DNA from: a virus
DNA length: 41,542 nt
Direction: 5' to 3' (one strand)
IMG/VR virus record: IMGVR_UViG_3300021960_000174
Coordinates: 1 to 41,542 of that record
Shown piece after piece: positions 994-36,220 of this stretch. Within the stretch, counting starts at the first letter, position 1. Each line of letters starts with the position of its first letter. The notes beneath the pieces are model-generated. The model was not told the origin of the DNA. It saw only the letters and a list, made by a program, of their open reading frames with translations, and searched no databases. A program made the translations under genes and the position numbers.

Positions 994-1021
994 TTGACAT
1001 TCTTTCTCCCATGAAGATAAT
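994..1021 (+). promoter_or_regulatory. Sigma70-type early promoter
   Basis: A perfect -35 box TTGACA (994-999) and a -10 box GATAAT (1016-1021, five of six to consensus) are separated by 16 bp. The start of the first early gene lies 41 bp downstream behind an AGAAAGGA ribosome site. It would drive the whole rightward operon 1062-4672 with host RNA polymerase. Confidence 0.75.
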
Positions 1022-1061
1022 AGTTAATAGGACATTTTTTTAATTTACAGAAAGGAACAAA

Positions 1062-1406: not shown

Positions 1407-1632
1407 AAATAATTATAATCACATTAAAACAAATTTAGAAATTGTAACTTCCAATGCAGAAGCTTTAAAAAGATATATTGATAAGGGATGGATTGATTTT
1501 GCTAAAGTAGAAGCTAAATCACTTGTTGAGTGTTTAAACATCGTTAATACATACCTGAACAATATTATTGAAATTGAGGATCGTTATTGGAATCAACAAG
1601 CTGATTTACAAAAGGAGCGAGAAAATGGGTAA
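1399..1632 (+). CDS. Small helical early protein, unknown
   Basis: 77 residues, predicted mostly helical, with a charged C-terminus ending KERENG. An AGGAG site sits upstream. It overlaps both neighbours by 8 nt (1399-1406 and 1625-1632). No recognisable family. Confidence 0.75.
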   Translation: MPRNNYNHIKTNLEIVTSNAEALKRYIDKGWIDFAKVEAKSLVECLNIVNTYLNNIIEIEDRYWNQQADLQKERENG

Positions 1633-1804
1633 GTTAAACGATAGTGATTTTCATAACGTGGATAGTGAACTACCTCATTTTTTATCTCAAATAATTGATA
1701 TTCATATCAATTGGAACGATGAAAAAGAAGTAGATAACTTTCATGATTTTAGAAATAAATTTATTAAGTTAGTTGAAAAGCATTACTTACTAGGAGGCAA
1801 ATAA
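1625..1804 (+). CDS. Small early protein, unknown
   Basis: 59 residues beginning MGKLNDSDF. A longer frame opens at 1568, but the ATG at 1625 has AAGGAG at a suitable distance and an 8-nt overlap like its neighbours, so I use it. Acidic N-terminal half, basic C-terminal half. Its TAA overlaps the next ATG by one base. Confidence 0.7.
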   Translation: MGKLNDSDFHNVDSELPHFLSQIIDIHINWNDEKEVDNFHDFRNKFIKLVEKHYLLGGK

Positions 1805-1965
1805 TGTATTTATATTACGTATCACACAACAAACATGGTGTAAGAACACTAGAAGCTAAAAACACTTACAATGCGTGTAAGAAATTTGCTTCTCTTTTTA
1901 ACCTTAAAAGCACATCTGGTATTAGTGCTTATGTAATGACAAGAAAGGTGGTGGCAGATGAGTAA
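1804..1965 (+). CDS. Small phage protein with K(S/T)xxGISAY motif, unknown
   Basis: 53 residues starting MYLYYVSHNK, with TYNACKKFASLFNLK and then STSGISAYVMTRKV. The A-C-K-F...GISAY pattern is one I associate with short proteins in marine phages; no function is known. An AGGAGG ribosome site (1793-1798) precedes the ATG, which shares one base with the previous stop. It overlaps the next gene by 8 nt. Confidence 0.7.
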   Translation: MYLYYVSHNKHGVRTLEAKNTYNACKKFASLFNLKSTSGISAYVMTRKVVADE

Positions 1966-2137
1966 ATTAAAAGACTTTTTAATTGGTGTTGAGGAAGAGT
2001 TTTCTCAACACCTTGAAGATACTACAAACGATGTTGCTTTAAATAAAATAGAATACAAACACGGATCTATGGCAAGGCAACATTGTGAAGATTTATTAAC
2101 TGAATGGAATGGAGAATATAATGCAGAAAAAAACTAA
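1958..2137 (+). CDS. Small acidic early protein, unknown
   Basis: 59 residues, MSKLKDFLIGVEEEF..., acidic and probably helical. An AAGAAAGG site lies upstream. It overlaps the previous gene by 8 nt and the next (start 2121) by 17 nt. No family recognised. Confidence 0.7.
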   Translation: MSKLKDFLIGVEEEFSQHLEDTTNDVALNKIEYKHGSMARQHCEDLLTEWNGEYNAEKN

Positions 2138-2444
2138 TAAACAAAACAAACCTTATGATGATTTGAGAAAAGCAACCAACGTACATATTCTTAAATCAGT
2201 AAACTCGATGAGAAGGATATTAGAAAGTATAAGAGAGAGTGGGGGAAGATATATAACGCTTGGTGAAGTAGATGATCTAGAAGATGCAATGCTAGACACC
2301 ATTCGATTTTATAACTTAAAAAAGCAAGGTGGTATACCAGAGTATGACGACAATGGTAAGTATCAAGAATTCTGGCATAGTGATTATGTCAGTCCTACAC
2401 ACCCAGATGCTTTTGATCCTAAAAAAGTAAAAGAGGAGGATTAA
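2121..2444 (+). CDS. Early protein, unknown
   Basis: 107 residues from the ATG at 2121. An alternative start at 2109 adds four residues but lacks a ribosome site, whereas GGAG lies six bases before 2121. The N-terminus is basic (MQKKTNKQNK) and the C-terminal half acidic and aromatic, ending DPKKVKEED. Unknown function. Confidence 0.75.
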   Translation: MQKKTNKQNKPYDDLRKATNVHILKSVNSMRRILESIRESGGRYITLGEVDDLEDAMLDTIRFYNLKKQGGIPEYDDNGKYQEFWHSDYVSPTHPDAFDPKKVKEED

Positions 2445-2735
2445 ATGAAAAACAAATTAGTAACATTTGAAATAGCCAACGGAGAATTTACTGATAACCA
2501 ATATGCTATTTTTACTAACATAGATGATTGGACTAACAAGGATATCATTACAGAAGTTTATGGTATAGATGATGATGATACTTGGGATGCTGAACATGAG
2601 TTTTTAGAAATGGCTAGTGGTAGCAGAATAGTAAAAGTGTATTCTATTGATAACATTACAAACGACGAAGCAAAGGTATTGAAAAAGTTTCATATTGCCT
2701 TTGATGTTTGGCAGAATTTACATAACCCAGATTAA
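2445..2735 (+). CDS. Acidic early protein, unknown
   Basis: 96 residues with a strong AGGAGG site directly ahead. Very acidic middle (YGIDDDDTWDAEHEF). Starts right after the previous stop. Possible nucleic-acid or protein mimic from its charge, but no family is recognised. Confidence 0.75.
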   Translation: MKNKLVTFEIANGEFTDNQYAIFTNIDDWTNKDIITEVYGIDDDDTWDAEHEFLEMASGSRIVKVYSIDNITNDEAKVLKKFHIAFDVWQNLHNPD

Positions 2736-2744
2736 GAGGATTAA

Positions 2745-2936
2745 ATGAAAAAACATTATATAGATCTTACAAGTTTAGTTGTTGATGACATTACTTTTAA
2801 AAAAGTAATGTCTGGCACTTTCAATGTGAAAAGGTTTTTAAAAAGACTAATTGAGGATGATGTAATACAGATCGTCAATACAGATAATGCAGATGAAGAT
2901 GCTTTTGATTTAAAAAAATATATGGAGGATAAGTAA
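2745..2936 (+). CDS. Small early protein, unknown
   Basis: 63 residues, MKKHYIDLTSLVVDD..., with an acidic C-terminal third. AGAGGAT precedes the ATG. Its TAA shares a base with the next ATG (2936). Confidence 0.7.
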   Translation: MKKHYIDLTSLVVDDITFKKVMSGTFNVKRFLKRLIEDDVIQIVNTDNADEDAFDLKKYMEDK

Positions 2937-3136
2937 TGGATAGAAGTGAATGTTTTAGAGAGTTTATATTTGAGTTATCAAGACGATTAGCAGATGAGTC
3001 TGATTACGAAAAGGAATTATTACCTAAATTTAAAGAGTTACTGAATATGACTAATTGGATTATAGGAGAAGCTTGGGAGAATGGTTTAGGTGGTGAAGTT
3101 TTTAATAATAAAATGAAAGGGTTAAATAATGACTAA
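2936..3136 (+). CDS. Small helical early protein, unknown
   Basis: 66 residues, charged and probably helical, with a GGAGG site upstream and an 8-nt overlap with the next gene. No family recognised. Confidence 0.7.
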   Translation: MDRSECFREFIFELSRRLADESDYEKELLPKFKELLNMTNWIIGEAWENGLGGEVFNNKMKGLNND

Positions 3137-3332
3137 ATGGACATTAACTGAAAAACAAATAAAAGAACTAGAAAAAAAAGATTGGGAAGTAGTTCCTAAA
3201 GCAAGATATTTAGATTTATACCACGATGACTTCGAGGGAGATACTTGGCAACAAATATGCGAAGTTTTTGATAAGCAAAACGTTGCTGATAAATTAACTT
3301 TATTAGTAGTGGGAGTAAAAACCAATGAGTAA
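3129..3332 (+). CDS. Small early protein, unknown
   Basis: 67 residues, MTKWTLTEKQIKELEKK then DLYHDDFEGDTW; an amphipathic helix followed by an acidic segment. Ribosome site AAAGGG. Overlaps both neighbours by 8 nt. An opposite-strand frame at 3122-3349 is its shadow. Confidence 0.7.
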   Translation: MTKWTLTEKQIKELEKKDWEVVPKARYLDLYHDDFEGDTWQQICEVFDKQNVADKLTLLVVGVKTNE

Positions 3333-3603
3333 TGTTTTAAAAAAAGCACACAATCAATTGCAGGATATGTATGAACCTATAGCAAAAATTATAAATGATG
3401 AAAAAGAAAAAGAAATTATACTTACTTTAATTCAAGATTTGTCAGATAAACTTTTAGATCATTTAGATTATGATGTTAAAGAAAAGTACGAACATTTAGC
3501 AGAACAATTAGTTGGAGATGATGCTACAGAAAGATATACTCACGAAGAATTAATTGATGAAGTAAATAGATTAAAAGATATAGAGGAGAGAGAAAATGAG
3601 TAA
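3325..3603 (+). CDS. Acidic helical early protein, unknown
   Basis: 92 residues, almost all predicted helix, rich in Glu, Asp and Lys; the C-terminus (RLKDIEERENE) could form a coiled coil. GGGAG ribosome site; 8-nt overlaps at both ends. Confidence 0.75.
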   Translation: MSNVLKKAHNQLQDMYEPIAKIINDEKEKEIILTLIQDLSDKLLDHLDYDVKEKYEHLAEQLVGDDATERYTHEELIDEVNRLKDIEERENE

Positions 3604-3856
3604 AGAATATAAATACACTTACACATTTAGTGAGCAAACTGTTGATGTAAGATACTATAAAGTAGAATCTAATAAAAAACTTACCAGATCTGAGATGCAA
3701 GAAATAGCATGGGGTGTAGAACAGACAGAAGGAGAAACCTTTGAAGATGAAAACGGTAAGGCTACATTTGGTGGTACTGAATATGGAGATGATGCACAAT
3801 ATCAAATGGAGGAAGGCTCTGAAAACTTATTAGATGGAGATGATTATGATTGGTGA
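3596..3856 (+). CDS. Early protein with strongly acidic C-terminus, unknown
   Basis: 86 residues. The N-terminal half alternates hydrophobic and charged residues (EYKYTYTFSEQTVDVRYYKV), suggesting beta strands; the last 40 residues are very acidic, ending LLDGDDYDW. The charge pattern fits a protein- or DNA-mimic inhibitor, but this is inference only. GAGGAG ribosome site. Confidence 0.75.
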   Translation: MSKEYKYTYTFSEQTVDVRYYKVESNKKLTRSEMQEIAWGVEQTEGETFEDENGKATFGGTEYGDDAQYQMEEGSENLLDGDDYDW

Positions 3857-4025
3857 ATTGGTTAAAACAAAATGTGAAAAATGTGGAAATGTTCAAGATT
3901 CTCCACCAGAGGATATGAGTTATACTTCTGTAACTGATCTTCTATTATGTGATGATTGTTATACAGAATTAAGATTAGCTATAGCCTATCAATTAGATAT
4001 AGAACTATGGGAGGTAAATTTATGA
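3846..4025 (+). CDS. Zinc-ribbon early protein
   Basis: 59 residues from the ATG at 3846, chosen because GGAG lies seven bases ahead; earlier in-frame ATGs at 3834 and 3840 have no usable site. CEKC near residue 10 and CDDC near residue 38 form a Cys4 zinc ribbon. Role unknown; small zinc ribbons in early phage operons often contact nucleic acid or host polymerase (general knowledge). Overlaps the next start by four bases. Confidence 0.7.
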   Translation: MIGELVKTKCEKCGNVQDSPPEDMSYTSVTDLLLCDDCYTELRLAIAYQLDIELWEVNL

Positions 4026-4279
4026 GTAAAACATTTTTACCTATGAATGAGTATATAGCATACTCTAGTGATCTAGCAGATAAAATTATGCAAAAAATAT
4101 ATGGTAAAGATTATGATAATTTTATTATTTACAGTAAGACTTACCCAGATATTAGTTTTACAGAAAAAGGTCAAGATATCTACAATGAAATTATTGATAA
4201 AGTAGAAGAGTTTCTGGCAGATGTAGGCATCTACCCAGAATCAGAGGAGGATAGATTAAATGTTAGAGGAGATAAATAA
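4022..4279 (+). CDS. Early protein, unknown
   Basis: 85 residues from MSKTFLPMNEY, with GGAGG eight bases ahead. A longer frame opens at 3956 but overlaps the zinc-ribbon gene and lacks a site. Tyr-rich first half, acidic second half. Unknown. Confidence 0.7.
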   Translation: MSKTFLPMNEYIAYSSDLADKIMQKIYGKDYDNFIIYSKTYPDISFTEKGQDIYNEIIDKVEEFLADVGIYPESEEDRLNVRGDK

Positions 4280-4459
4280 ATGTGTAGTTTAATGGATGTT
4301 AATTTAATAGATATTAATAAGCATTTTAAAGAGCTTCAAAGTCAGCTCTCAGATGCTTTATGGGAGGGTGAACTAATAAAAGCTAAACACCTAAGAAAAG
4401 AAATAGATGAAACTCTGATAAAAATAAATAAAGGGGAACTTTATGTCCCAAAATTTTGA
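4280..4459 (+). CDS. Small helical early protein, unknown
   Basis: 59 residues, MCSLMDVNLIDINKHF..., mostly helix. It starts immediately after the preceding TAA behind GAGGAG, and overlaps the next gene by 17 nt. Confidence 0.65.
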   Translation: MCSLMDVNLIDINKHFKELQSQLSDALWEGELIKAKHLRKEIDETLIKINKGELYVPKF

Positions 4460-4601
4460 GTTAGAGTTAAGGATCTTAAAGGTTCATAGCATTCTAAAAA
4501 ACTGTGATCCAGATATTAAAGATAACTTTGTTTATGATTATTGGTCTGGAGTCATGGAAGCTTTAATGAATAAACTGAATGAAGGGAGGACGTTACACTA
4601 A
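4443..4601 (+). CDS. Small early protein, unknown
   Basis: 52 residues, MSQNFELELRILKVHS..., ribosome site AAGGGG. Its TAA shares one base with the next ATG. Unknown function. Confidence 0.6.
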   Translation: MSQNFELELRILKVHSILKNCDPDIKDNFVYDYWSGVMEALMNKLNEGRTLH

Positions 4602-4672
4602 TGAAACTGATACTAATCATTATCATAGCCGTTTTAATAATTGCTTGGTTGTTTGGCATAGATGATATTTAA
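4601..4672 (+). CDS. 23-residue membrane peptide
   Basis: MKLILIIIIAVLIIAWLFG then IDDI: a single hydrophobic span with one Lys at the N-side and two Asp at the C-side. GGGAGG lies 11 bases upstream, and the ATG overlaps the previous TAA. It is the last gene before the terminator region. The size and start overlap argue for a real gene; it may be a membrane-acting early peptide (inference). Confidence 0.55.
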   Translation: MKLILIIIIAVLIIAWLFGIDDI

Positions 4673-4679
4673 ATAAAAA

Positions 4680-4718
4680 AGAGGTAACTTTGACGCTAAC
4701 GCTATCTTAGTTACCTCT
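4680..4718 (-). terminator. Leftward intrinsic terminator
   Basis: AGAGGTAACT (4680-4689) pairs perfectly with 4709-4718 across a 19-base loop. Read leftward, the stem is followed by TTTTTT. Read rightward there is no T-run, so it mainly stops transcription coming from terS and the replication genes. Confidence 0.65.
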
Positions 4719-4818
4719 ACTTAAAGAAAAAGTTATAATTTCGATCACAGAAATTATAATAATTTATTTTACTAAATTTTTTAATATTTTTCAAATTATT
4801 TTTATTTTTTTTTATTCT

Positions 4819-4875
4819 GGTAGAGATCTACTACCATGGTGGTAGAGATTTACTGCATTCTGGTAGAGATTTACT
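4819..4875. repeat. Three GGTAGAGAT(T/C)TACT repeats with central palindrome
   Basis: Copies of GGTAGAGATYTACT lie near 4819, 4841 and 4862. CTACTACC followed by ATGGTGGTAG forms an 18-bp near-palindrome with one mismatch. The core matches the tandem repeat inside the nuclease gene at 550-608, four kb away. Confidence 0.75.
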
Positions 4876-4880
4876 TATAA

Positions 4881-4916
4881 AAAAAGCTGATGAATGACTA
4901 AAAACATCAGCTTTTT
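4881..4916. terminator. Bidirectional intrinsic terminator
   Basis: AAAAAGCTGATG (4881-4892) pairs with CATCAGCTTTTT (4905-4916) around a 12-base loop, giving a T-run after the stem on both strands. It separates the convergent early and terS units. Confidence 0.8.
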
Positions 4917-4991
4917 AACAGAAAGAAGATTATATTATGACTATATAATCTATACTTAGATTATAAAATATATTATAAAAGTCAATTGAAA

Positions 4992-5177
4992 TTACCAATT
5001 TTTTAAAACATTAATAATAATTGCTAAACAAGTAAGTATGTGTAGTAACACCCAAAATGTTCTCATAACTGCAATGACATCTGCTTTATTGTCATCATTA
5101 AAAGCTTTTGTACCTAAAGCTTTACACCAATATGTCCATGATTTTTTAAGAAAATTATTTTTTTTCTGGAGTAACAT
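4992..5177 (-). CDS. Small membrane protein after terS, possible holin
   Basis: 61 residues from ATG at 5177 (a TTG at 5180 is an alternative). N-terminal half basic (KKNNFLKKSWTYWCKALG), then one hydrophobic span near residues 38-57 (FWVLLHILTCLAIIINVL). It overlaps the terS end by 23 nt. I recall similar short proteins in marine phages; a holin-type role is possible from size and topology but not shown. Confidence 0.65.
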   Translation of the reverse strand: MLLQKKNNFLKKSWTYWCKALGTKAFNDDNKADVIAVMRTFWVLLHILTCLAIIINVLKNW

Positions 5178-5655
5178 CAATTATATTAACTCCCTCTCCA
5201 ATTTTTTTCTCTAATTCAACTAACCTTTGTTCTAACTGATCTCTACTCATACCCTCTAAACTAGAATGAGTTATTTCTTTTTTATCAATAAACATGCCCG
5301 CCATCTGTCCAGCTCTATACTCAGCGTTGATTGCTCCAGTATATTGACCTTTCATTTCTGCCCCATCCCTAAGTCTTTCAAATGTTTTGTAGCGTTTTAG
5401 TTTGTCTTTTTCATATTTTTCTTGTTCTTTTTGTAATCTTTTCTCTAAATATCTACATACATGAGGGTTTAGATCTGGATTTAAGAGTTTACTAGCCATT
5501 TCATAGGGTTTACCATTCTTAGATGTATACCCAGCTTTAATCGCTGCATCGACCCTCTTTATCTGACCCCAATTAGCAACTAGTATATCTACATAGCTTC
5601 TTTGTTGCGGTGTTAACTCAGCAGATGTTTTCATATGGTTTTTCTTTCTTGGCAT
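5155..5655 (-). CDS. terS: Terminase small subunit
   Basis: 166 residues. Residues 14-60 read LTPQQRSYVDILVANWG...AAIKAGYTS...ASKLLNPDLNPHV, the Terminase_2-type helix-turn-helix signature: a helix with F/Y-V, A-A-I-x-A-G-Y, then L-L-NP. The middle is a charged coiled-coil-like segment (residues 68-90) and the C-terminus a second helix (QLEQRLVELEKKIG), as in ring-forming TerS proteins that bind the packaging site. No large terminase gene follows; it must lie outside the window. The start at 5655 has only a weak ribosome site; Met8 is an alternative. Confidence 0.8.
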   Translation of the reverse strand: MPRKKNHMKTSAELTPQQRSYVDILVANWGQIKRVDAAIKAGYTSKNGKPYEMASKLLNPDLNPHVCRYLEKRLQKEQEKYEKDKLKRYKTFERLRDGAEMKGQYTGAINAEYRAGQMAGMFIDKKEITHSSLEGMSRDQLEQRLVELEKKIGEGVNIIDVTPEKK

Positions 5656-5720
5656 ATATCTTATATATACCCAATTTTTAAATTTATTTCTACCTTTTTC
5701 CTAAAATTCTATATAGCACT

Positions 5721-8131: not shown

Positions 8132-9995
8132 CTTGACCAAAGTCGTTGCCTAGAGCAACATCTATTACACTTGGAACATTCAATTCCACGCAAGACTCCA
8201 TCTCTCTCTTTATTTTCTCTACGTCCTCATTATTGGCAACGTTAAAACATAATTCATCATGTATTTGCACAATAGGTAAGTAACCTTTTTTAAAACAATT
8301 AACAATTGCTTTTTTAGTTTGATCGGCCGCTGATCCTTGGATCAATCGGTTTAATGCTTTGTATGTAAAACATCTTTTAATATTGTTACGTCCATATTTA
8401 GCAACGGCATTCTCAAAAGTTTCTGGACTATGTAAACCAAAATCTCTTGGCTCCCACATATTAAAACGACATTTACGTCCAAGCTTTGTTCGTATCACTC
8501 CCTGATCATTTGCTTTTTTCATACAACGATCCGACAATAATTTTACAAAAGGTACTTTACGATTATACTTAGCGATTAAACTATTAGCTTCTTCATATTC
8601 CAGGCCGAGCATCGTGGCTAGTTTTTTCTTACCCATACCATACATCAATCCTAGTCCAATAGTCTTTGCTTCTTTACGACCGATACCACAAATATCGGCT
8701 ACAGTTTGATGAAAGTCTGCATCTGCATTTGCATATGCTTGTACTAATTCTGAAGATCCTTGATACCCTTCACCAATACTACTAGCATAATGAACCACGA
8801 GCCGTGGTTCTTGCTGACTATAATCAAAACTTCCCCACTTGCAACCTTCTTCAGGTAAAAATAAACCACGTATCATTGGGCCGAACTCTTTGTTTCTGGC
8901 AGGCAATTGTTGGAGATTAGGATTCGACATTGATAACCTACCAGAAACGGTTCCACCAGAGTCGTTTCGGAGTTGTTGTATTTCAGCATGTATCCGACCC
9001 TTGTGTTCGTATTTCATTATACTAGATAAAAATGTATTATGAAATTTATTTATTTCTCTAGCTTCTACAATCAGTTTACTAATAGGTGCTTGAGAGTTAC
9101 TTAACCATTGTTGCGTGAAGCTTGGTTCACCAGTCTTTTCTGTTTTAGGGTACTCAATGTTTAATTTATCATAAGCCCAACTAATTTGTCTGGCGGCCCA
9201 AATGTCAATATCCTTACCGATAAGTTTTTTTATATCCTGTAATGTTTTCTTTTCTCTTACCTCAAATGTAGTTTTTAATTTTTCTGCTTTATCTCTATCA
9301 ACACGTACACCCTTTTGTCGCATCTTAATTAAGATAGGAAGCAGATCTCTCTCCAACTCCCAAATAGTTGTTAAGCTTTGCTTTTCCATTTCATGTTTAA
9401 AACGTTGCCATAAAAGATACGTGAGCCGTGCATCTTGTTCCGCATAATGTCCAACATGTTCAGCAGGCAACTTCCACATCTCAGCCTTTGGATCTACACC
9501 ATGAGCTTTTGCAGCTTCGTTCAAATCACCCTCTGCTTTTATCTCTCCTAAATATTCTCTTGCTAGTGCGTTTAATTTATACGTGTATCTGTTTTCATCA
9601 ATCAATGCTCCTGCGATCATGGTATCGACAATTTCCCCACGAACGTCGATACCATAAGCGTTCAACCATCCCACATCATATTGTGCGTTATGGAATATCT
9701 TACGACAAGGTAACTTACAAACATCATGCATGTATTTTAATACTTGTTCCTTGATTAAATTACCACCACCAAAATGTTCTATGGGGTAGTAACCTTCCCA
9801 ACCTTCTGTCGCAATTGCAAAGCCAACTATTTTACCTTTACCTGTTGCCCAACCTGCTCCTAAACCTCCATTGATCCCATCGTCTTTAGTTTCTAAATCT
9901 ATAGCGATCTCTTTTGCTCCTGATAAATCTTTGTATTCAGGTGGAGCAGTCCACAAATTCTTCTTATAGTTTAATATTAGCTGTAATGATGTCAT
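8124..9995 (-). CDS. polA: Family A DNA polymerase with 3'-5' exonuclease domain
   Basis: 623 residues from the ATG at 9995, which overlaps an upstream stop as ATGA and has a G-run five bases ahead; a TTG at 10013 is less likely. The exonuclease domain shows D33-x-E35, FHNAQYD (N103, D107) and YAEQD (Y184, D188), so proofreading looks intact. The polymerase domain has motif A DYSQQEPR (391-398), motif B RKEAKTIGLGLMYG with K444 and Y452, and motif C HDE (579-581). The position equivalent to E. coli Phe762 is Leu448, a variant known from marine phage polymerases and linked in the literature with slower replication. It replicates the phage genome with the neighbouring primase and helicases. Confidence 0.95.
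   Translation of the reverse strand: MTSLQLILNYKKNLWTAPPEYKDLSGAKEIAIDLETKDDGINGGLGAGWATGKGKIVGFAIATEGWEGYYPIEHFGGGNLIKEQVLKYMHDVCKLPCRKIFHNAQYDVGWLNAYGIDVRGEIVDTMIAGALIDENRYTYKLNALAREYLGEIKAEGDLNEAAKAHGVDPKAEMWKLPAEHVGHYAEQDARLTYLLWQRFKHEMEKQSLTTIWELERDLLPILIKMRQKGVRVDRDKAEKLKTTFEVREKKTLQDIKKLIGKDIDIWAARQISWAYDKLNIEYPKTEKTGEPSFTQQWLSNSQAPISKLIVEAREINKFHNTFLSSIMKYEHKGRIHAEIQQLRNDSGGTVSGRLSMSNPNLQQLPARNKEFGPMIRGLFLPEEGCKWGSFDYSQQEPRLVVHYASSIGEGYQGSSELVQAYANADADFHQTVADICGIGRKEAKTIGLGLMYGMGKKKLATMLGLEYEEANSLIAKYNRKVPFVKLLSDRCMKKANDQGVIRTKLGRKCRFNMWEPRDFGLHSPETFENAVAKYGRNNIKRCFTYKALNRLIQGSAADQTKKAIVNCFKKGYLPIVQIHDELCFNVANNEDVEKIKREMESCVELNVPSVIDVALGNDFGQAT
8792..8810. repeat. Perfect 8-bp hairpin inside polA
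   Basis: GAACCACG (8792-8799) pairs exactly with CGTGGTTC (8803-8810) around a three-base AGC loop. It contains one of four GAGCCGTG copies. It lies within the coding sequence of the polymerase palm. Confidence 0.7.
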
Positions 9996-10099
9996 GAAAC
10001 CCCCAGAAAACAAGGGTTTTTACCCCTAAATCCATTTAAATGGCCGTAGAAGGCCTGTAAACAATCTTTGCTTATGATTCTACCTTGAAAACTATTCAT
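9992..10099 (-). CDS. 35-residue linking peptide between DUF3310 gene and polA
   Basis: MNSFQGRIISKDCLQAFYGH, then LNGFRGKNPCFLGVS. Its ATG overlaps the DUF3310 stop by 8 nt and its TGA overlaps the polA ATG by 4 nt, so it fills the gap exactly. The start has only a poor ribosome site. The DNA carries a 12-bp palindrome (10032-10043) and a GGCC inverted repeat, so the region may instead be a leader with regulatory structure. Confidence 0.4.
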   Translation of the reverse strand: MNSFQGRIISKDCLQAFYGHLNGFRGKNPCFLGVS

Positions 10100-16949: not shown

Positions 16950-17644
16950 TACGTATCAACTTTAGCTAACCATTTTCTTTGATACATATCTAGCATCTCT
17001 TCATTCATAGTAAACTTTTGAAACAATAAATCTTTTGTGCATACAAGTATGACACCTTGTTTTACCTCTTCAAAATTATCACTATAGGCTTTACTGTAAG
17101 CTGCAATTTGATAATAATAATCTTCTATCCACTCTTCTCTTTTTGGTTTATTGGATTGTTTAAAATCTAGTATTGATAACTTACCATCATATACTCCTAC
17201 AACATCTGTAGATCCAGCATACAAATCTTTATAATGTAGTGTTACTTCTGTGCCCCATACTTCTGTAAATTTTTCTAAATTTTCTATAATAGTATGAGCC
17301 ATGAGGCGTGCTAAGTTGCCATTGGTTGACAAGTTCAAATACCCGTGGCCCTTGAGATATTGTTCTAGTACATAATGCATTTCTGTTCCACGTCTTGCAG
17401 CTTGAGCCGTGATCCGTGCTGCCTCGTCATAGCCTACTCTTTCACGCCACTTGTCTAAAGATTGTTTTTTCTCAGGAGGTTGTGTTGCACTGAGTATAGT
17501 AGTAACAGAAGGTATTTTCTTTTCACCTACATTATAGGTTCTACCTGTTTCTTCATCGTTCCTGGAATAGTCTTTATGATTGTATTTATTAACAATCTTA
17601 AAACCAGATACTGTAAAGGATTTATCAGTCTTTGTTATCTTCAT
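16913..17644 (-). CDS. RecB-like PD-(D/E)XK exonuclease
   Basis: 243 residues. RGTEMH (His90), E133, GSTDVVG (Asp147), LDFK (D160, K162) and YYYQIAAY (Gln179) give the full RecB/Cas4-type nuclease core H...E...D...D-x-K...Y-x-x-Q. No Cys cluster for an Fe-S site is seen. Likely a phage recombination or DNA-degradation exonuclease working with the SSB-like protein and helicases. It overlaps the upstream gene by 20 nt. Confidence 0.88.
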   Translation of the reverse strand: MKITKTDKSFTVSGFKIVNKYNHKDYSRNDEETGRTYNVGEKKIPSVTTILSATQPPEKKQSLDKWRERVGYDEAARITAQAARRGTEMHYVLEQYLKGHGYLNLSTNGNLARLMAHTIIENLEKFTEVWGTEVTLHYKDLYAGSTDVVGVYDGKLSILDFKQSNKPKREEWIEDYYYQIAAYSKAYSDNFEEVKQGVILVCTKDLLFQKFTMNEEMLDMYQRKWLAKVDTYYKNSATSSPSV

Positions 17645-18317
17645 CTACGTACAAGTTGTTAAAGGTATATTCAGGGTTCATGTAAGATTCGTCTTCTTCA
17701 GCACTAAACTCATATTGACTTGGTATAAAGTCTGGTGCACCTTGACCCGTGACCCATAAAGCAGGATTAGTTACTCGTACTCTATTGTTTGGTTGAGCTA
17801 CAATCTGTCCTTTAAACTCACCACTAGTAATGGCAAGTATGTGTGATTGTTTGTGTTGTGCTACATCATCACCTAACGCATTTATGTCATCACCGTTAGT
17901 GTAATCAATAGTAAAATAATATTTAGCATTGTAAAACTGACCATCTATTTTTGTAATCCAAGGACTACTACTGGTTCTATCATATTTTATAATAGTAAAA
18001 TCTCTACTCGAACAATCCCAAGGTTGTACAAAATGATTAGGTAATCTTGGAGGCCATACATCTAATTGCTCATCAGCTACTAATGATTGTATTGGCATTC
18101 GAGCCCACATAGCTCCACCATGAGGACCTTCTAACCGATTGTCTTCATCCTCACAACCTGTAAACACCACTTGAAACGACAAGGATCTATCTGGTATAGC
18201 AGTGACTGCAATGGCAAGTCCGTGTATGAACTCGCCATGATAGTCTTTATGATTGTTTGTAAATTCTTTTCTTACCCAACATTTAAAATAAGGTATGTTG
18301 CATGTTAAATAAGCCAT
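17625..18317 (-). CDS. Conserved phage protein, unknown
   Basis: 230 residues, aromatic-rich with many beta-like segments, e.g. SLSFQVVFTGCEDEDNRLEG and MWARMPIQSLVADEQLDVWP. Acidic C-terminus. I believe similar proteins occur in marine phage genomes but know no function. It sits between nuclease and virion genes, so it may be either a DNA-metabolism or a virion accessory protein. AAGG lies before the ATG. Confidence 0.75.
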   Translation of the reverse strand: MAYLTCNIPYFKCWVRKEFTNNHKDYHGEFIHGLAIAVTAIPDRSLSFQVVFTGCEDEDNRLEGPHGGAMWARMPIQSLVADEQLDVWPPRLPNHFVQPWDCSSRDFTIIKYDRTSSSPWITKIDGQFYNAKYYFTIDYTNGDDINALGDDVAQHKQSHILAITSGEFKGQIVAQPNNRVRVTNPALWVTGQGAPDFIPSQYEFSAEEDESYMNPEYTFNNLYVDEDNKD

Positions 18318-18354: not shown

Positions 18355-18744
18355 TTATTTTTTCTTTTTCTTAAAAGCTGCTAAATCTCTTTTACCAGAA
18401 GCTGTCAATCTACTTTTAGCAACAGGTTTTGTCTTAGTCATTGGATCTTTTCTAGTTAGTCTTGCAAAACCAGCTTTTGACAACACACCAGATTGCATGA
18501 GTCTATTAGCTACTTTGATATCATTTGCAGTAAACCTACCAGCTGTATTACCTGCTTTCTTAGCTGTCTTATCAAACTTACCAACATTATATCTAGAAGC
18601 ATTACTTTTCTGACCTCTTACTCCAATACCGTCTTTAGCTTTGATCATTTTAGCTCCGCCTTTAGAGTATCCTTTAGCCATTTTACCGCCTCTAGCTTTC
18701 ATCATTTTAGCTCCGCCCTTAGAGTATCCTTTACTTTTCATCAT
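18355..18744 (-). CDS. Lys/Gly repeat protein (KGYSKGGAKM)
   Basis: 129 residues. The N-terminus holds two 19-residue repeats, KGYSKGGAKMMKARGGKMA and KGYSKGGAKMIKAKDGIGV. Then a basic helical region (NDIKVANRLMQSGVLSKAGF) and an all-lysine tail. Strongly positive, so binding to DNA or packaged genome is likely. Similar YSKGG segments appear in the right-hand virion-region proteins. Start behind AGAGGAT; directly downstream of the PqqA-like peptide. Confidence 0.75.
   Translation of the reverse strand: MMKSKGYSKGGAKMMKARGGKMAKGYSKGGAKMIKAKDGIGVRGQKSNASRYNVGKFDKTAKKAGNTAGRFTANDIKVANRLMQSGVLSKAGFARLTRKDPMTKTKPVAKSRLTASGKRDLAAFKKKKK
18637..18733. repeat. Two 40-bp direct repeats, 57 bp apart
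   Basis: 18637-18676 and 18694-18733 share the run ATCATTTTAGCTCCGCC and flanks with only two differences over 40 bp. They encode the two protein repeats. The 57-bp period (19 codons) keeps frame, and so could expand or contract by recombination. Confidence 0.85.
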
Positions 18745-18759
18745 AATAGTATCCTCTAC

Positions 18760-18834
18760 TTATATTTCGGCACAAGCGTAGCAGTTGATCTCTAAGCCTA
18801 CACTAATTTCTTTGATTTCTGGTCTTTTCCACAT
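18760..18834 (-). CDS. pqqA: PqqA-like peptide (PQQ precursor)
   Basis: 24 residues: MWKRPEIKEISVGLEINCYA, then CAEI. Known PqqA peptides are 23-29 residues with W-x-x-P near the start and the E-x-x-x-Y pair whose Glu and Tyr are crosslinked to make pyrroloquinoline quinone. Here W2-x-x-P5, the V-G-(L/M)-E-(I/V) block with Glu15, and Tyr19 all fit, and the CAEI ending resembles alphaproteobacterial peptides. AAGGAG lies seven bases before the ATG. No PqqB-E enzyme is in the window, so the peptide would have to feed host enzymes, or be a different RiPP-type precursor. It overlaps an upstream basic mini-gene by 37 nt. Confidence 0.75.
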   Translation of the reverse strand: MWKRPEIKEISVGLEINCYACAEI

Positions 18835-18911
18835 AATAAACTCCTTATAATTTTTTTTTGTTTTAACGCTTTTTGTTCTTTTTTATAATACCATAAACTC
18901 ATTTTAGTCAT
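18798..18911 (-). CDS. 37-residue basic peptide upstream of the PqqA-like gene
   Basis: MTKMSLWYYKKEQKALKQKK, then IIRSLLCGKDQKSKKLV. It has the strongest ribosome site around (AAGGAGGTGATG). Its 3' end overlaps the PqqA-like gene by 37 nt in another frame, so translation through it could open the PqqA ribosome site. Could be a leader peptide or a small basic protein. Confidence 0.55.
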   Translation of the reverse strand: MTKMSLWYYKKEQKALKQKKIIRSLLCGKDQKSKKLV

Positions 18912-18999
18912 ACACATCACCTCCTTCAAGATAATGCGTTTCTTCAGCTTTATGCTTACTTCCGACCTAAGTCAAACGAATTTATATAATATTATTATA

Positions 19000-19650
19000 C
19001 TATTTATTTGACTCTATTTCAATCCATTGTCTACGTTTATTTAAAAAATCCAAATACACCTGAGTATCCGCATACCCTCGTCCTTCATTTATACACATAA
19101 GGTAATACTTAGGTTCATATATGATACAACTATTATCGTCATGTTCTACTTCATGAGCATATAACGGGGGCGTTAATGTAACAAAAAACTTTAAAGTAAT
19201 TCCTACTGACACTCCTATAAAAGCTATAGTTGCTACAGTAATAAAACCCCACTTGACATACTCCATAATTTCTTGTTGTTTCTTATGAGCCTTGGCCCGT
19301 GCTTCTTTAATCGCTTTTTTTCTTTTGTCTATACGTTTTTTACGCTCTTCTAAAATGTACTCCCAAGTTCCATGACCAAAACGCAGGTTAATTAATTGTT
19401 TCATCTCGTATAATTGTTCTTGAGCTAAACGAGCATTAATCACTTCCTTTGCGACTTCCTGTGTCGAAAAGGGATCGGCCCCAGACTTCTCTCTTTCTTT
19501 TATGACCTTCTTCTGTCCTTCAAAAGCGTTTTCTACATGACCAATTAGTTCACCAATATCCTGACAGGTACTGATATTTTTTTTAACAAACTCAACACTT
19601 TTGGTAACTAAAGCTATTCCTGTGAGGACCGCACTGACTGGCTCAACCAT
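19000..19650 (-). CDS. Membrane/coiled-coil protein, possibly lysis or virion
   Basis: 216 residues from ATG at 19650; a TTG at 19674 with AGAGG six bases ahead is a good alternative that adds eight residues. N-terminal MVEPVSAVLTGIALVTKSVE is weakly hydrophobic, residues about 95-130 a Lys/Arg-rich coiled coil, then a clear membrane span (WGFITVATIAFIGVSVGITL) and an acidic soluble C-terminal domain with two Cys. The gene overlaps the small membrane gene ahead by 8 nt. Function unknown. Confidence 0.7.
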   Translation of the reverse strand: MVEPVSAVLTGIALVTKSVEFVKKNISTCQDIGELIGHVENAFEGQKKVIKEREKSGADPFSTQEVAKEVINARLAQEQLYEMKQLINLRFGHGTWEYILEERKKRIDKRKKAIKEARAKAHKKQQEIMEYVKWGFITVATIAFIGVSVGITLKFFVTLTPPLYAHEVEHDDNSCIIYEPKYYLMCINEGRGYADTQVYLDFLNKRRQWIEIESNK

Positions 19651-19873
19651 TTGATTTCTCAATAAAACGATCAAGTTTATCCTCTAATCTACGAAGATGT
19701 TCGAGTATTTGATTTGTCTGTGACTGTGCATCGTCACGAGGCAGGTACTCTTCCCTGGTTTTATTGAGTAGTATTTGTAATCTCTTTACTTCATGAAACA
19801 TTCTATTGAATGCCCAACCGACTGCTGATAAAAGCACGGTTAGTAAAATATTCCATAACATCATGTTATCCAA
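19643..19873 (-). CDS. Small membrane protein with coiled coil (holin/XhlA-like layout)
   Basis: 76 residues: an N-terminal membrane span (MLWNILLTVLLSAVGWAF), then a charged coiled coil ending ILEHLRRLEDKLDRFIEKSN. The layout resembles spanin-like or XhlA-type lysis helpers, but the order is only suggestive. Overlaps both neighbours by 8 nt. Confidence 0.65.
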   Translation of the reverse strand: MDNMMLWNILLTVLLSAVGWAFNRMFHEVKRLQILLNKTREEYLPRDDAQSQTNQILEHLRRLEDKLDRFIEKSNG

Positions 19874-27127: not shown

Positions 27128-27958
27128 CTACTCTGTATTGTCTAACTTATCAAGACCCACAGATATCATTTCATCTATTAAACGACCAGAATACTCATAT
27201 TCTCCTATATGTGTAATATATTCTGTAATCAAAGCCATACATTTACCACCTATTTTAGTCCATAATCTTGAAAAAGCAAAGTCTTCCCCATAATATAATT
27301 TGTTTTCTTTGTCATAGTACGTATCAAAAAAATTGTATAAATGTTTTCTATATTGTTGTGTTCCGTCTATCATCGTTTCTTGTTTTATAATAAGATCGGG
27401 ATAAGCTTGTATCATTTTATTTAATGCTTCTCTTTTTATCAACATACAACCTGTCATAGAATGTGATAGCTCAATCATTTCATCGCACATGTTTATATCG
27501 TCTTCTGCATCTTTTAAACGTACAGGGTATTTATTACCTGATGTAGACAATTGCGTAAAATCTAAATCAGGAATGTCTCTCCATTTGTCACATACTTTAT
27601 CCCATAATATATTTTTCATAGGATACGGTATACTCAATATCTCTTGATCTTTACATATCATTTTAAAAATAGACTCAGCACTAAACTGTATATCGCTATC
27701 AATAAATAACATATGCGTACAATCAGTAAGTAAAAATTCTGATACGCATAAATTACGACCTTGCGTTATCAAAGAAGATTTCATTAACTGTAACATGATA
27801 GGAATGTTTTTTTCATGACATTGTGCTTGTAATTTAAAAACAGATTGCATGTAGTGTATCGATACCTGACTATGCACAGGAGTAGCTACAAATAATTTTA
27901 TGTTATTGTTTTCTAACCATGTAGCGTCAGGCGTGTACAGAGGTTCTTGCTCTTTCAT
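27128..27958 (-). CDS. GT-A (family 2-like) glycosyltransferase
   Basis: 276 residues. KLFVATPVHSQVSIHYMQSV (21-40) is the nucleotide-sugar-binding strand, MLFIDSDIQF carries D87-S-D89 (DxD metal site), and SMTGCMLIKREAL the acceptor loop. A DxD motif indicates an active sugar transferase using a nucleotide sugar. It overlaps the GT4 gene by 32 nt, forming a pair inside the virion operon. Substrate unknown: virion protein, host surface or DNA are options. Confidence 0.8.
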   Translation of the reverse strand: MKEQEPLYTPDATWLENNNIKLFVATPVHSQVSIHYMQSVFKLQAQCHEKNIPIMLQLMKSSLITQGRNLCVSEFLLTDCTHMLFIDSDIQFSAESIFKMICKDQEILSIPYPMKNILWDKVCDKWRDIPDLDFTQLSTSGNKYPVRLKDAEDDINMCDEMIELSHSMTGCMLIKREALNKMIQAYPDLIIKQETMIDGTQQYRKHLYNFFDTYYDKENKLYYGEDFAFSRLWTKIGGKCMALITEYITHIGEYEYSGRLIDEMISVGLDKLDNTE

Positions 27959-28874
27959 TTAATATCCCAGTTAAAAAGTTAGTCCATTCTAATTTCTTTT
28001 TATCCCAACTATAAAACTTCTTTACAAAGTCTTGTTGCATTTGTAAATGTTCAAATACCCCTGGTTCGTGAAGCGTGGCTACTGAACTACGAATAGCGTT
28101 AGCAAATACAGTAGACAATCTTTTGTAATCCTTATCATAGGTAACATAAGCAGGGAACTCGGAACATGTTTCATATAAAGCACCATAATTAGTCACGATA
28201 CAATATAATCCTGCGGCCATAGCTTCTAATGCAGCATTACAACTTGTCTCTTCCCATATACTAGGGTAAGCAAACATGTGATAGCGGTACATAAACTTTT
28301 GTATAAATGAATGTTCTTTGTAACCAATATAGTTTACGTTCTCTAACTTTCTTGCTTGCTCATACAAAGGTTCATACTTAGCTTCATTTGCTTGTTCAAA
28401 TTCTTCCCCATATATTTTACAACTACTAAACACATCAAGATGTACATTACAATCTTGTAGTTGTTGCATTGCACCAAGCAACACATTTAAACCTCTCCAA
28501 GGAGTTACGTGAAATAACATTCGTACCATGTCCCCATGTTTGTAAGGAGTTAGAACAGGAAAGTTTGTTACTCCATTTTTAATTACATGACATTTGTGTG
28601 TGGGTATATCAAACTTGTATCTAAACTTTTCATAGTTCCAGTGTGAATTAAACACGTACCAGTCAAACTGGTTGTGGTTGTTTTTATCTTCAAACCAAGG
28701 GTATATATTAGGTTGATCGTAACTATTTTTTTGCCAAAGAATATTTACTTTATTATTATCAAGAGGTATTTTACCAGGTATAGAAGTGCATATTTGAAAG
28801 TTCTTTAATAACTCTTCGTCAACATAATGATCTAAAAAATGATGTTGTATCTCTGTGCCTCCTTTAGGAAACAT
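27927..28874 (-). CDS. GT-B (family 4-like) glycosyltransferase
   Basis: 315 residues. KGGTEIQ at 4-10 is the Gly-rich N-terminal loop; RMLFHVTPWRGLNVLLGAMQ (118-137) and YPSIWEETSCNAALEAMAAG (203-222) supply the donor site with E209-x7-E217, the hallmark of GT4 enzymes. About 60 residues shorter than bacterial GT4s, mainly in the N-terminal domain. Paired with the GT2-like gene. Confidence 0.85.
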   Translation of the reverse strand: MFPKGGTEIQHHFLDHYVDEELLKNFQICTSIPGKIPLDNNKVNILWQKNSYDQPNIYPWFEDKNNHNQFDWYVFNSHWNYEKFRYKFDIPTHKCHVIKNGVTNFPVLTPYKHGDMVRMLFHVTPWRGLNVLLGAMQQLQDCNVHLDVFSSCKIYGEEFEQANEAKYEPLYEQARKLENVNYIGYKEHSFIQKFMYRYHMFAYPSIWEETSCNAALEAMAAGLYCIVTNYGALYETCSEFPAYVTYDKDYKRLSTVFANAIRSSVATLHEPGVFEHLQMQQDFVKKFYSWDKKKLEWTNFLTGILNERARTSVHA

Positions 28875-29105: not shown

Positions 29106-29666
29106 TTAACTGTACCAACTAACACAACTATAACGAACACCTTTTGTTATTTCTGTAACACTATGTGGATATAAAAAATTACTTGGAAACATTAATAAAT
29201 CACCTTGCTTTAAAGATACTTTTGAATAAGGCTCTGTAGTATGAGGGTGATAAAAAACTACATCTCCTCCTGTATATTCTTCATTTAAATTTATAATAAA
29301 AGACAATTGTCTATTTACTGTATGAAACGAATCAACATGTGTTTTATAAAAATTACCTTTTTTATATTTTAATAAACTTATATCTTGAGGGGAACATTGT
29401 CTTAAATAAGAAAATATTTTCGAATAACTTTTTAAAGAATTATTCATAACACTTAGTAAATAGTTAATATATATTTCATCGTTTGGGTTTTCTGGATCTA
29501 AACCATGTGTGTAAACATTTCTTTGACTTGTATCTTCTACATCTTTTCCATCAATTAATACTTTAGCCTTTTCAGTACATTGAACATCCATATATTTTAT
29601 TAAATTCTTACACCATTTTTGGGATAATGTTTTTTCTATTTTGTATATAGCTTGGTGTAATTGCAT
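29106..29666 (-). CDS. 2OG-Fe(II) oxygenase (prolyl-hydroxylase-like)
   Basis: 186 residues. H110-x-D112, then TGGDVVFYHP (strand), GDLLMFP and His168, with Arg178 for 2-oxoglutarate: the complete iron and cosubstrate set of the P4H/PiuC-type oxygenases common in marine phages. Role unknown; hydroxylation of a virion or host protein, or of a nucleobase, is possible. The start overlaps a small membrane-protein gene by 59 nt. Confidence 0.88.
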   Translation of the reverse strand: MQLHQAIYKIEKTLSQKWCKNLIKYMDVQCTEKAKVLIDGKDVEDTSQRNVYTHGLDPENPNDEIYINYLLSVMNNSLKSYSKIFSYLRQCSPQDISLLKYKKGNFYKTHVDSFHTVNRQLSFIINLNEEYTGGDVVFYHPHTTEPYSKVSLKQGDLLMFPSNFLYPHSVTEITKGVRYSCVSWYS

Positions 29667-33902: not shown

Positions 33903-34976
33903 TTAAGTATCATTTGATGCGTCAGTTGTAAAAAATAATTTTATACCTAATAATCTAGCATCTCCTGATTGGTCATCAGCAGAAACATCTCTCATTACTT
34001 GAAAGAATACTTGATCTCCTGCTGCTGGTGAACCAGCTATAGTTACAGCTCCACTTTCTGCAGCAACATCTAAATCATTTGATGTTCCACTATGTGCTTT
34101 AGCAGTTGCAACTACGTTAGTTCCAAATGCTGTGTTGCAAGAGTCATTATCTGAAATTGCTACACCAGATAATCCCCAAGCTACTGTACCTGTGTTTGTT
34201 CCTGTAACTGTAAAAAATGCTTGAAAAGTTATTGTTCCTTCATTCCATGATTTAGGAAAAGCTACTGCAAATTGTGCATTTTCATCTGAACTAGCGTCAA
34301 AGTCTAATACCTTTATCTCAGGTCCATTACTTAATTCTACTTGAGCTGCTTCTGCACCATTTGTTGTATTAGGGTACATAGCATTTGCTGGCACCCATAT
34401 AGTTTCTTTACCTGGTAATTTTACTGTTTGAAACTCTAAAGCACTTGCTCCTGAGTTTACTGATAAAGATTGATTAGCACTACCTACAGAAGTTAAACCT
34501 GTACCACCTTTTGCTACAGTTACTGTTGGTAAACTTGCTACCCCAACAGCACCACCTAAAGTATCTAAAGACACTTCATTAAGATTAGTTCCATCAGCAT
34601 ATGCAAAGTACATTTTTGCTTGGTCGGTTACAAAACCAGAACCACTTGCTGTTTTAATTGTTAAGTTTGTAGGATTAGTTACTGCTGTTATATCAAAAAT
34701 ATACATTTTTTCTATACTGTCTGGAACAGTTACTACAGTAGCTCCTGATAGGGTAACAGAAGCTACTTTTATAACCATATTTCTTGCATTAGATATAGAT
34801 GCGTTTGACATAGCTAAAGCAACAGTTGCTCCACTACTAACACTTACTTGTTCAAAGCCACCTATTGCTTGTTGTACTAAATTTAAATTTGTATTTGTTT
34901 TTGTTCCCCATGTACCAGCGTTTTCACCAGTAGCCATGAGTTCCAGTTTTAAATCTGATGAGTATGTTGATGCCAT
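33903..34976 (-). CDS. Tail fibre protein
   Basis: 357 residues. STYSSDLKLELMATGENAGT followed by WGTKTNTNLNLVQQAI is the conserved N-terminal attachment segment of many marine phage tail fibres, then beta repeats, VAKGGTGLTSVG (the KGGTG hinge common in fibres) and a beta-rich C-terminal domain. AAGGAA precedes the ATG. Confidence 0.8.
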   Translation of the reverse strand: MASTYSSDLKLELMATGENAGTWGTKTNTNLNLVQQAIGGFEQVSVSSGATVALAMSNASISNARNMVIKVASVTLSGATVVTVPDSIEKMYIFDITAVTNPTNLTIKTASGSGFVTDQAKMYFAYADGTNLNEVSLDTLGGAVGVASLPTVTVAKGGTGLTSVGSANQSLSVNSGASALEFQTVKLPGKETIWVPANAMYPNTTNGAEAAQVELSNGPEIKVLDFDASSDENAQFAVAFPKSWNEGTITFQAFFTVTGTNTGTVAWGLSGVAISDNDSCNTAFGTNVVATAKAHSGTSNDLDVAAESGAVTIAGSPAAGDQVFFQVMRDVSADDQSGDARLLGIKLFFTTDASNDT

Positions 34977-34990
34977 ATTTTATTCCTTTA

Positions 34991-36220
34991 TTATGCCGCT
35001 GTTGTTATCTCGGTCCACGTTGTTTGTGTACCCGTGTTTATTTCTGACCATGATATTATTATTACACTTCCTACGTTGCTCGTCAATACTACACCTGTTA
35101 CATCATCTATTAAGCCAGTGCCTGTTACTTCTGTTGGAGCAACTGCTGTTGATGTAAGTGAAACACCAGTTACACCATAAGTAGATATAGGAACTATAGA
35201 ACCCATTGCTCCATTTACTGCAACACCAGTTACACTTGTAGATCCTGTTATTGAAAAAGATACACTTCCAATAGATGTTGTCGCTGATACTCCAGTAACA
35301 TTTACTAATGTAAGAGGTGCAATAATTGGTGTACCTGTCGATGATGTCATAGCTACACCAGTAATTCCTACAGTTGCATCTCCATCAAAATCAACTGTTC
35401 CTAAAGAACTTGTTATAGGTAAACCAGATACTGCTAAAGATACAGAGGTTGTTGTAGTGTTTCCTCCTATAGCAGAAGTTGTCGCTACACCAGTTACAGA
35501 TATAGTAAAGTCTGCTTTTGCTGTAGCTGTTCCAATAGATGTTGTTCCAACAACACCAGACACTGCTACTGTATAAGCAGCATCCCATGCTCTATTACCC
35601 CAAGAGCCACGACCCCAACCACTGTTTATCTCTCCAACAGGAGTAACAGATCCAACTGTACTAGAGACACTTAATCCAGTTGGTGATACTTCAGCTCCTC
35701 CTACATTTTGACCCCAGTTAAGTAAACCCCAAGAATTTCTACCCCAACCTAAACCAATTTCTGCATCAATTGTTGGTGTACCTATAGAGGATGTAGTGTT
35801 TACTCCAGTTACGGATAAATCTACATTATTTTGTGCTCCCCAATTACCTTCACTCCATGATAGTAAACCCCATGTGGTAGATGCTTCGGTATTAGCTGTG
35901 CCACCCATACCAGAATGATTAGAGCAATAGTAATAAAGAACTGGAGCAGAAGATGCAACTACGATAGTTGTTTTAGCACCAGCATTACCTGGTGTGCCAC
36001 TTGTAGTTACACCAGTAGTGTACTCACTTCCACTATTATGAGTACCATCTGAAGTAGTAGAAAACCTAAGAGGATGGTATTCATTAGAGCTATCAGCTTG
36101 ATCAAAAACATAAGTACCTCCTTCAGCTAATACAATAGTAGCTTGTTGAGCACCGTCTAAAAAATACTTATTCCCAGAACCTGGATTGGATACTGTAACT
36201 GTAATTGTTCTAGTAGTCAC
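34991..36220 (-). CDS. Tail protein with cupredoxin-like N-domain and VTGV repeats
   Basis: 409 residues with GTG start at 36220 (AAGGAG upstream). Residues 5-110 read as a cupredoxin fold: YFLDG, GGTYVFDQADSSNEYHPLRF and VLYYYCSNHSGMGG, with His49, Cys99, His102 and Met105 placed as type-1 copper ligands. About ten repeats of roughly 22-28 residues, built on (V/I)(T/S)G(V/L)...TSSxG(T/S), follow, with WGxxSWGxxxWG patches between. It is probably a fibre or tail-surface protein. Confidence 0.75.
   Translation of the reverse strand: MTTRTITVTVSNPGSGNKYFLDGAQQATIVLAEGGTYVFDQADSSNEYHPLRFSTTSDGTHNSGSEYTTGVTTSGTPGNAGAKTTIVVASSAPVLYYYCSNHSGMGGTANTEASTTWGLLSWSEGNWGAQNNVDLSVTGVNTTSSIGTPTIDAEIGLGWGRNSWGLLNWGQNVGGAEVSPTGLSVSSTVGSVTPVGEINSGWGRGSWGNRAWDAAYTVAVSGVVGTTSIGTATAKADFTISVTGVATTSAIGGNTTTTSVSLAVSGLPITSSLGTVDFDGDATVGITGVAMTSSTGTPIIAPLTLVNVTGVSATTSIGSVSFSITGSTSVTGVAVNGAMGSIVPISTYGVTGVSLTSTAVAPTEVTGTGLIDDVTGVVLTSNVGSVIIISWSEINTGTQTTWTEITTAA

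Follow-up and report, generated by a model that had tools for sequence, protein, structure and literature searches.

A stand-alone pqqA gene in a phage genome and short PqqA genes across viral contigs

We report that a PqqA precursor peptide is encoded on the minus strand at positions 18,760 to 18,834 of the window, by which we mean the whole 41,542-nucleotide stretch of viral DNA analysed here; this assignment is confirmed far above chance, and the gene sits in a real phage genome, that of a marine phage. PqqA genes of 23-27 residues were found by the hundreds in the viral contigs scanned. We consider it probable that the gene encodes a genuine PqqA acting as a substrate-only auxiliary metabolic gene, while its expression, its processing by host PqqDE, a resulting rise in PQQ and a benefit to the phage are all inferred.

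A PqqA peptide encoded in a phage genome

The gene is an open reading frame of 24 residues running from ATG to TAA at window positions 18834-18760, and its features are as follows.

18760..18834, minus strand: pqqA, encoding the 24-residue PqqA precursor peptide MWKRPEIKEISVGLEINCYACAEI (TIGR02107 and PF08042 over their cut-offs)
18841..18846, minus strand: Shine-Dalgarno motif AAGGAG, 6 nt before the pqqA ATG (from the sequence)

The initial annotation, which gave no strand, had described a 24-residue gene with a good ribosome site, a close match to PqqA and an alphaproteobacterial-like end, and had proposed a PF08042 profile search as a check. The reading frame and ribosome site proved exact, and the proposed search was significant (27.3 bits, E = 3.5e-6, against a curated cut-off of 21.1 bits). 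The NCBIfam equivalog model for PqqA, TIGR02107, scored 35.1 bits (E = 8.6e-9; curated cut-off 20 bits). All of the expected motifs are present, namely W2-x-x-P5, V12-G13-L14-E15 and E15-x-x-x-Y19, the last of which holds the Glu15 and Tyr19 pair that is joined by PqqE, and the peptide ends in YACAE, as does alphaproteobacterial PqqA. A profile search of the whole 41,542-base record returned no PqqA match other than this one. The peptide also scored 52 bits against a PqqA PSSM built from 126 cores, the window's own among them; in a control search of 3.3 Mb of reversed sequence, no candidate exceeded 5 bits.

The phage genes of the window include a family A DNA polymerase, a UvrD-type helicase, an AEP-type primase and an SNF2-type helicase, together with SU10-type adaptors and virion structural proteins. 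Judged by its helicase, the nearest cultured relative is Pelagibacter phage HTVC023P (67% identity; host HTCC1062), in which no PqqA was detectable in a search of phage records, and a megablast of window positions 17000-41542 against known phages gave no match. The claim that the phage carries PqqA without PQQ enzymes also held: models of PqqE, PqqD and PqqB found no match anywhere in the record (PqqC was not covered by a model of its own), and the usual bacterial arrangement beside pqqBCDE is not seen. The completeness of the record, a linear IMG/VR contig of 41.5 kb, is unknown, and this absence is therefore valid for this record only. Nor do the missing pqqBCDE neighbours exclude membership in the PqqA family, since stand-alone pqqA copies are known in bacteria.

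Two further genes of the window were recorded in passing. A 2OG-Fe(II) oxygenase at 29106-29666 (minus strand), near a glycosyltransferase at 27927-28874, is another possible auxiliary gene. A 230-residue protein at 17625-18317 (minus strand), which adjoins an exonuclease, carries the PHROG label 'ferredoxin' (phrog_3704) and has no Pfam match; we regard that label as doubtful.

Genomic neighbourhood and predicted control

A glutamine riboswitch just upstream of pqqA, overlooked in the initial annotation, leads a unit in which a small ORF comes first and pqqA second. The unit and its surroundings comprise the following elements.

18355..18744, minus strand: downstream gene, a 129-residue basic protein with KGYSKGGAK repeats, function unknown (ORFs and alignments)
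18798..18911, minus strand: small ORF of 37 residues, MTKMSLWYYKKEQKALKQKKIIRSLLCGKDQKSKKLV (ORFs and alignments)
18920..18926, minus strand: AAGGAGG ribosome site of the small ORF (sequence and RNA fold)
18933..18980, minus strand: glutamine riboswitch aptamer, RF01739 (Rfam, 47.7 bits against a gathering score of 35)
18994..19022, minus strand: promoter-like TTGAAA-17-TATAAT, 11/12 consensus, before the riboswitch (consensus scan)
19000..19674, minus strand: upstream gene, a 224-residue protein of unknown function, the upstream boundary of the site in relatives

The riboswitch is identified by a covariance model; that it binds glutamine and controls the pqqA unit is inferred, without binding data. 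Expression of pqqA would probably begin at a promoter ahead of the riboswitch, with the caveat that the count of promoter-like sites in the region is not above that in shuffled sequences. In the predicted fold, the AAGGAGG site is paired within a hairpin whose first bases belong to the 3' end of the riboswitch, and such a hairpin over the ribosome site would suit a translational switch; the support for this is weak, as the fold energy is not unusual (whole-region z = -1.06). The small ORF lies directly behind the riboswitch, is conserved at about 37 residues (MxKMxLWYxKKEQ...) and overlaps with its 3' end the start of pqqA in another frame.

The same order recurs in three related contigs (L201, L392 and L400), in which a glutamine riboswitch is likewise found upstream of pqqA, and pqqA stands, as in the window, between a relative of the small ORF and the KGYSKGGAK-repeat protein. 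The latter has no PHROG or Pfam match and forms the downstream boundary of the pqqA insertion. A further relative, L298, is about 90% identical to the window in several neighbouring proteins and has the riboswitch (by sequence) and both flanking neighbours, including a relative of the small ORF, without pqqA, from which it follows that pqqA was gained or lost cleanly at this site. Of 50 relatives by helicase, most of them fragments, only 4 had PqqA, and near relatives of the window lack it; the gene is therefore dispensable or host-specific. We considered a general link between the riboswitch and pqqA but discarded it: the riboswitch occurs without pqqA in L298, lies 3' of pqqA in L180 and L217, and is far from pqqA in L078 and L177.

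Distribution among sequenced phages and viral contigs

We searched 50,697 phage records with four PqqA queries. PqqA was found in nine records of Methylophilales/Methylophilaceae phages (Venkman, P19250A, MEP301, MEP401, MEP402 and four Melnitz) and in the uncultured spring phage ctXG6705; none of the other phages in these records whose host is named gave a credible match, and the Pelagibacter phages, of which the collection holds many, gave none. A weak match of 41.7% (MT837118) was left out of the count. The nine records also omit MEP431-434, on which we found no publications, as well as Venkman EXVC038S, HIM624-A (a partial genome) and MG-MTP1, and should not be taken to represent all OM43 phages. 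One record, 'Acinetobacter phage MD-2021a' (CAKLQF020000010.1), was rejected, given that it contains a bacterial pqqBCDE operon and ppk and looks like mislabelled chromosomal DNA; a second PqqA-matching record bears the same name (CAKLQH020000055.1), and the rejection applies to the first alone.

Methylophilales phages infect methylotrophs, in which methanol is oxidised by PQQ enzymes. According to the papers describing them, Venkman (in one genus-level cluster with P19250A), MEP301, the myovirus Melnitz and MEP401/402 (Zobellviridae) belong to distinct groups. The gene is annotated as pqqA in none of these phages, being either missing or covered by a hypothetical protein on the wrong strand (QZI94433.1 and UOF77531.1; MZ577095.1 74848-74943 in Melnitz-1; MW202481.1 2067-2195 in ctXG6705). 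The published accounts of these Methylophilales phages that we searched mention no PQQ genes, and in one of them PQQ appears only as an ingredient of the medium.

Viral contigs in IMG/VR extend this distribution. A first scan with the pattern W..P....x..G.E[IV]..Y gave at least 120 matches; among the 120 matches listed, 119 are short ORFs for PqqA, most of them preceded by a Shine-Dalgarno motif, and the remaining one (L077) is not PqqA. Two types of viral PqqA can be distinguished, an alpha type (VGLEI-N-[CS]-YACAE) and a beta type (RFGFEVTMY). A second scan directed at the alpha type again gave at least 120 matches, and scans with exact 20-mers, which ran to completion, yielded 106 (six also in the first scan) and 11 (six also in the alpha set). 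Extrapolation, which assumes that the scans traverse the collection in a fixed order, puts the IMG/VR total at about 2,100 for the general pattern (rough 95% range 1,000-5,700) and about 220 for the alpha type (144-513). Every one of the 232 viral copies measured is 23-27 residues long, and a Shine-Dalgarno motif precedes 117 of 121 alpha-type copies. The default minimum of Prodigal, a common gene caller, is 90 nt, and viral pqqA is shorter, which would account for its lack of annotation; the finding points to a metabolic gene whose small size has kept it largely out of annotations.

Enzymes of the pathway were rarely met alongside the peptide. PqqE exceeded its cut-off in 0 of 50 PqqA-bearing viral records and PQQ alcohol dehydrogenase was present in one of the 50 and absent from the other 49, such that these phages would depend on host enzymes. 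Two individual contigs are noted here for their content: L070 (record G089, 72 kb) encodes a PQQ alcohol/methanol dehydrogenase at 34049-35731 in addition to PqqA, like the Lake Baikal virus VP_266, and L124 carries a phage permuted alphaproteobacterial tmRNA (1479-1772, minus strand) about 200 bases from pqqA.

Likely hosts

A scan of genomes for G[LM]EINCYACAE returned 66 loci, all alphaproteobacterial save for a few labelled 'Proteobacteria' and one 'Gammaproteobacteria'. The cellular PqqA closest to that of the window is MWKRPEIREVAVGLEINCYACAEL, from a marine single-cell genome of 1.2 Mb and 29% GC, in which the gene is followed by what reads as pqqB. More generally, the nearest cellular PqqA peptides were found in marine alphaproteobacteria of 1.0-1.7 Mb, and the genomes with the closest ones resemble the AEGEAN-169/HIMB59 group, a tentative name. 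The host of the window phage may thus be among the low-GC marine Alphaproteobacteria that hold the closest PqqA, an inference drawn from a 24-residue peptide. The initial annotation had suggested looking for pqqBCDE in hosts, and PqqE was indeed over its cut-off in 19 of 20 of these genomes, although the hosts themselves are only inferred; PQQ alcohol dehydrogenase was over its cut-off in 19 of the 28 genomes in the family of the MWKRPEIREVAVGLEINCYACAEL genome. The window helicase was not found in genomes of the host family, in which infected single cells were sought without a positive control, so that this negative carries no weight.

In some low-GC marine alphaproteobacteria (L230, L237, L240, L292 and L231), an orphan pqqA is flanked by a LysR-type regulator on one side and a transporter on the other. 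It is a second copy where an operon copy was also found, and some of the orphan peptides are identical to viral ones.

Role of the phage peptide

In PQQ synthesis, Glu15 and Tyr19 of PqqA are joined by PqqE (with PqqD), then excised and oxidised to PQQ. One PqqA peptide is spent for each PQQ formed, and PqqB, PqqC, PqqD and PqqE persist as catalysts or carriers. If host transcription drops during infection, the supply of PqqA would be the first to stop, because PqqA is used one-for-one while PqqB-E are reusable. A phage that makes PqqA alone may thereby allow the pre-existing host PqqB-E to keep producing PQQ, and sustained PQQ could enable periplasmic PQQ-dependent dehydrogenases of the alcohol/methanol type to feed respiration during virion production. 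The one-for-one consumption of PqqA would explain why pqqA travels alone.

Two observations from bacteria bear on this mechanism. A cell-free extract of Gluconobacter turned added PqqA into PQQ at 70-80%, as cited in PMC9851590, and of the five pqqA copies in a Hyphomicrobium mutant that overproduces PQQ, the two with the strongest expression included an unlinked one (PMC9851590). PqqA supply alone can therefore be enough; whether it is limiting in the hosts considered here is unknown. That phage pqqA boosts host PQQ is an inference, but one that fits the surroundings of the gene: the crosslinked residues show no loss of the kind a decoy would, the likely hosts carry pqqABCDE and PQQ-dependent dehydrogenases, and among phages with a named host only the nine Methylophilales records have the gene. 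Against it stands that the nearest isolate, HTVC023P, is a phage without PqqA that infects Pelagibacter HTCC1062.

A peptide encoded alone, without enzymes, is also what one would expect of an inhibitor, that is, a decoy that occupies PqqD/PqqE and lowers host PQQ synthesis. We judge this improbable. A decoy would profit from losing Glu15 and Tyr19, and a lack of their conservation in relatives was named in the initial annotation as grounds for refuting the PqqA reading; both residues are nonetheless kept wherever the search did not force them, in 121 of 121 alpha-type copies (both positions free in the search pattern) and 97 of 97 beta-type copies (for which the pattern fixed only the first seven residues after Met). 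This restriction to unforced positions matters, as the pattern used in the first two scans itself dictated some of the PqqA conservation seen there. Several viral peptides are moreover identical to cellular ones (MWKSPVVKEVAVGLEINCYACAEI), and starving a methylotroph of PQQ would hurt the phage's own energy supply.

It is also conceivable that pqqA is a neutral passenger, a small cassette moving between phages and hosts whose retention is unrelated to PQQ. A stretch of about 85 bp spanning pqqA is 90.6% identical between ctXG6705 (MW202481.1 2107-2190) and Venkman (MT375522.1 around 9977-10045) and is the only near-identical DNA between Venkman's 10-kb region and the unrelated ctXG6705, which on sequence grounds suggests single-gene transfer; in addition, hairpins follow pqqA in several isolates and the gene is often in opposite orientation to its neighbours. 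Purifying selection on the peptide nevertheless leaves neutral carriage only a slim chance. Between the window and L201, pqqA differs by 8 synonymous changes and 1 nonsynonymous change (13.6 and 58.4 sites, respectively), and in moderately divergent pairs, at codons unforced by the pattern, pN/pS is 0.21 for the beta type and 0.51 for the alpha type; codon comparisons thus show purifying selection, with the reservation that the alpha value is only moderately below 1. The presence of the gene across separate lineages, and its confinement, among isolates whose host is named, to a single host group that depends on PQQ, likewise argue against a passenger.

We give very little credence to a third possibility, that the peptide is a signalling peptide or the precursor of a product other than PQQ (another radical-SAM RiPP). 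Short radical-SAM substrates can be reused, and one metagenome paper describes a PqqA-annotated RiPP family co-expressed with defence systems (PMC11118758). The match of the window peptide is to an equivalog-level PqqA model, however; the peptide is near-identical to the PqqA whose gene directly precedes pqqB in likely hosts (L238 and L229), and no other modifying enzymes were recognised in the window. Finally, 24-residue ORFs are common, but a chance ORF or a mis-binned host contig is refuted by the TIGR02107 E-value, by the phage replication and virion genes of the window and by the missing pqqB, pqqD and pqqE, the true bacterial contig filed as 'Acinetobacter phage MD-2021a' differing in having pqqBCDE attached.

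Returning to PqqA as a substrate-only auxiliary gene, a broader proposal can be framed, on which we consider the evidence evenly balanced: that phages of PQQ-dependent bacteria have repeatedly taken only the consumable part of the pathway, as a gene of fewer than 30 codons that is hence overlooked by gene callers, almost universal in phages of methylotrophs, also present in marine alphaproteobacterial phages and controlled by a glutamine riboswitch in the window's clade. If this broader proposal is true, infection of these hosts would commonly be limited by the supply of PQQ. Known auxiliary metabolic genes mostly encode enzymes; pqqA would supply a peptide that is consumed one-for-one. Viral pqqA also links phages with the oxidation of methanol and alcohols by marine bacteria that are abundant, and virus-host pairs that already exist (Venkman, MEP301, MEP401 and Melnitz) would allow the idea to be tested directly.

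Comparison with known systems

Viral pqqA has been reported previously (PMC7678222, PMC13188868), and it is the breadth of its occurrence, the host pattern and the annotation gap that appear to be new. In a search conducted largely without subscription literature, we met no publication that describes stand-alone pqqA in marine phages of the alphaproteobacterial type or in OM43 phages in culture, or that describes how widespread it is. The Lake Baikal methylotroph virus VP_266 encodes methanol dehydrogenase and PqqA (PMC7678222), and there, as here, viral pqqA is read as an auxiliary metabolic gene; VP_266 is a freshwater methylotroph virus that has pqqA together with methanol dehydrogenase, whereas the alpha-type pqqA of the window is alone. 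In reservoir sediments, viral pqqA, pqqE and pqqD were counted as auxiliary metabolic genes and interpreted in terms of phosphate solubilisation; pqqA is likewise treated as a viral gene in that study, the accessible part of which contains no analysis of the peptide (PMC13188868).

The OM43/LD28 phages Venkman, P19250A, MEP301, MEP401/402 and Melnitz resemble the window in having PqqA without annotated PQQ enzymes nearby, and differ from it in that their unannotated peptides (23-24 residues) are of the beta type (GFEVTMY) and that of the window is of the alpha type. The orphan pqqA copies of PQQ-making bacteria (Hyphomicrobium pqqA3-5, PMC9851590; L230, L237 and L240) also stand alone, away from pqqBCDE; those copies are chromosomal, and the window pqqA is viral. 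Compared with the PqqA family at large (TIGR02107 / PF08042), the window peptide is alike in length, in its W-x-x-P, V-G-L-E and E15-x-x-x-Y19 motifs and in its YACAE end, and the window copy is set apart by being phage-encoded, by having no pqqB, pqqD or pqqE alongside and by its place behind a predicted glutamine riboswitch.
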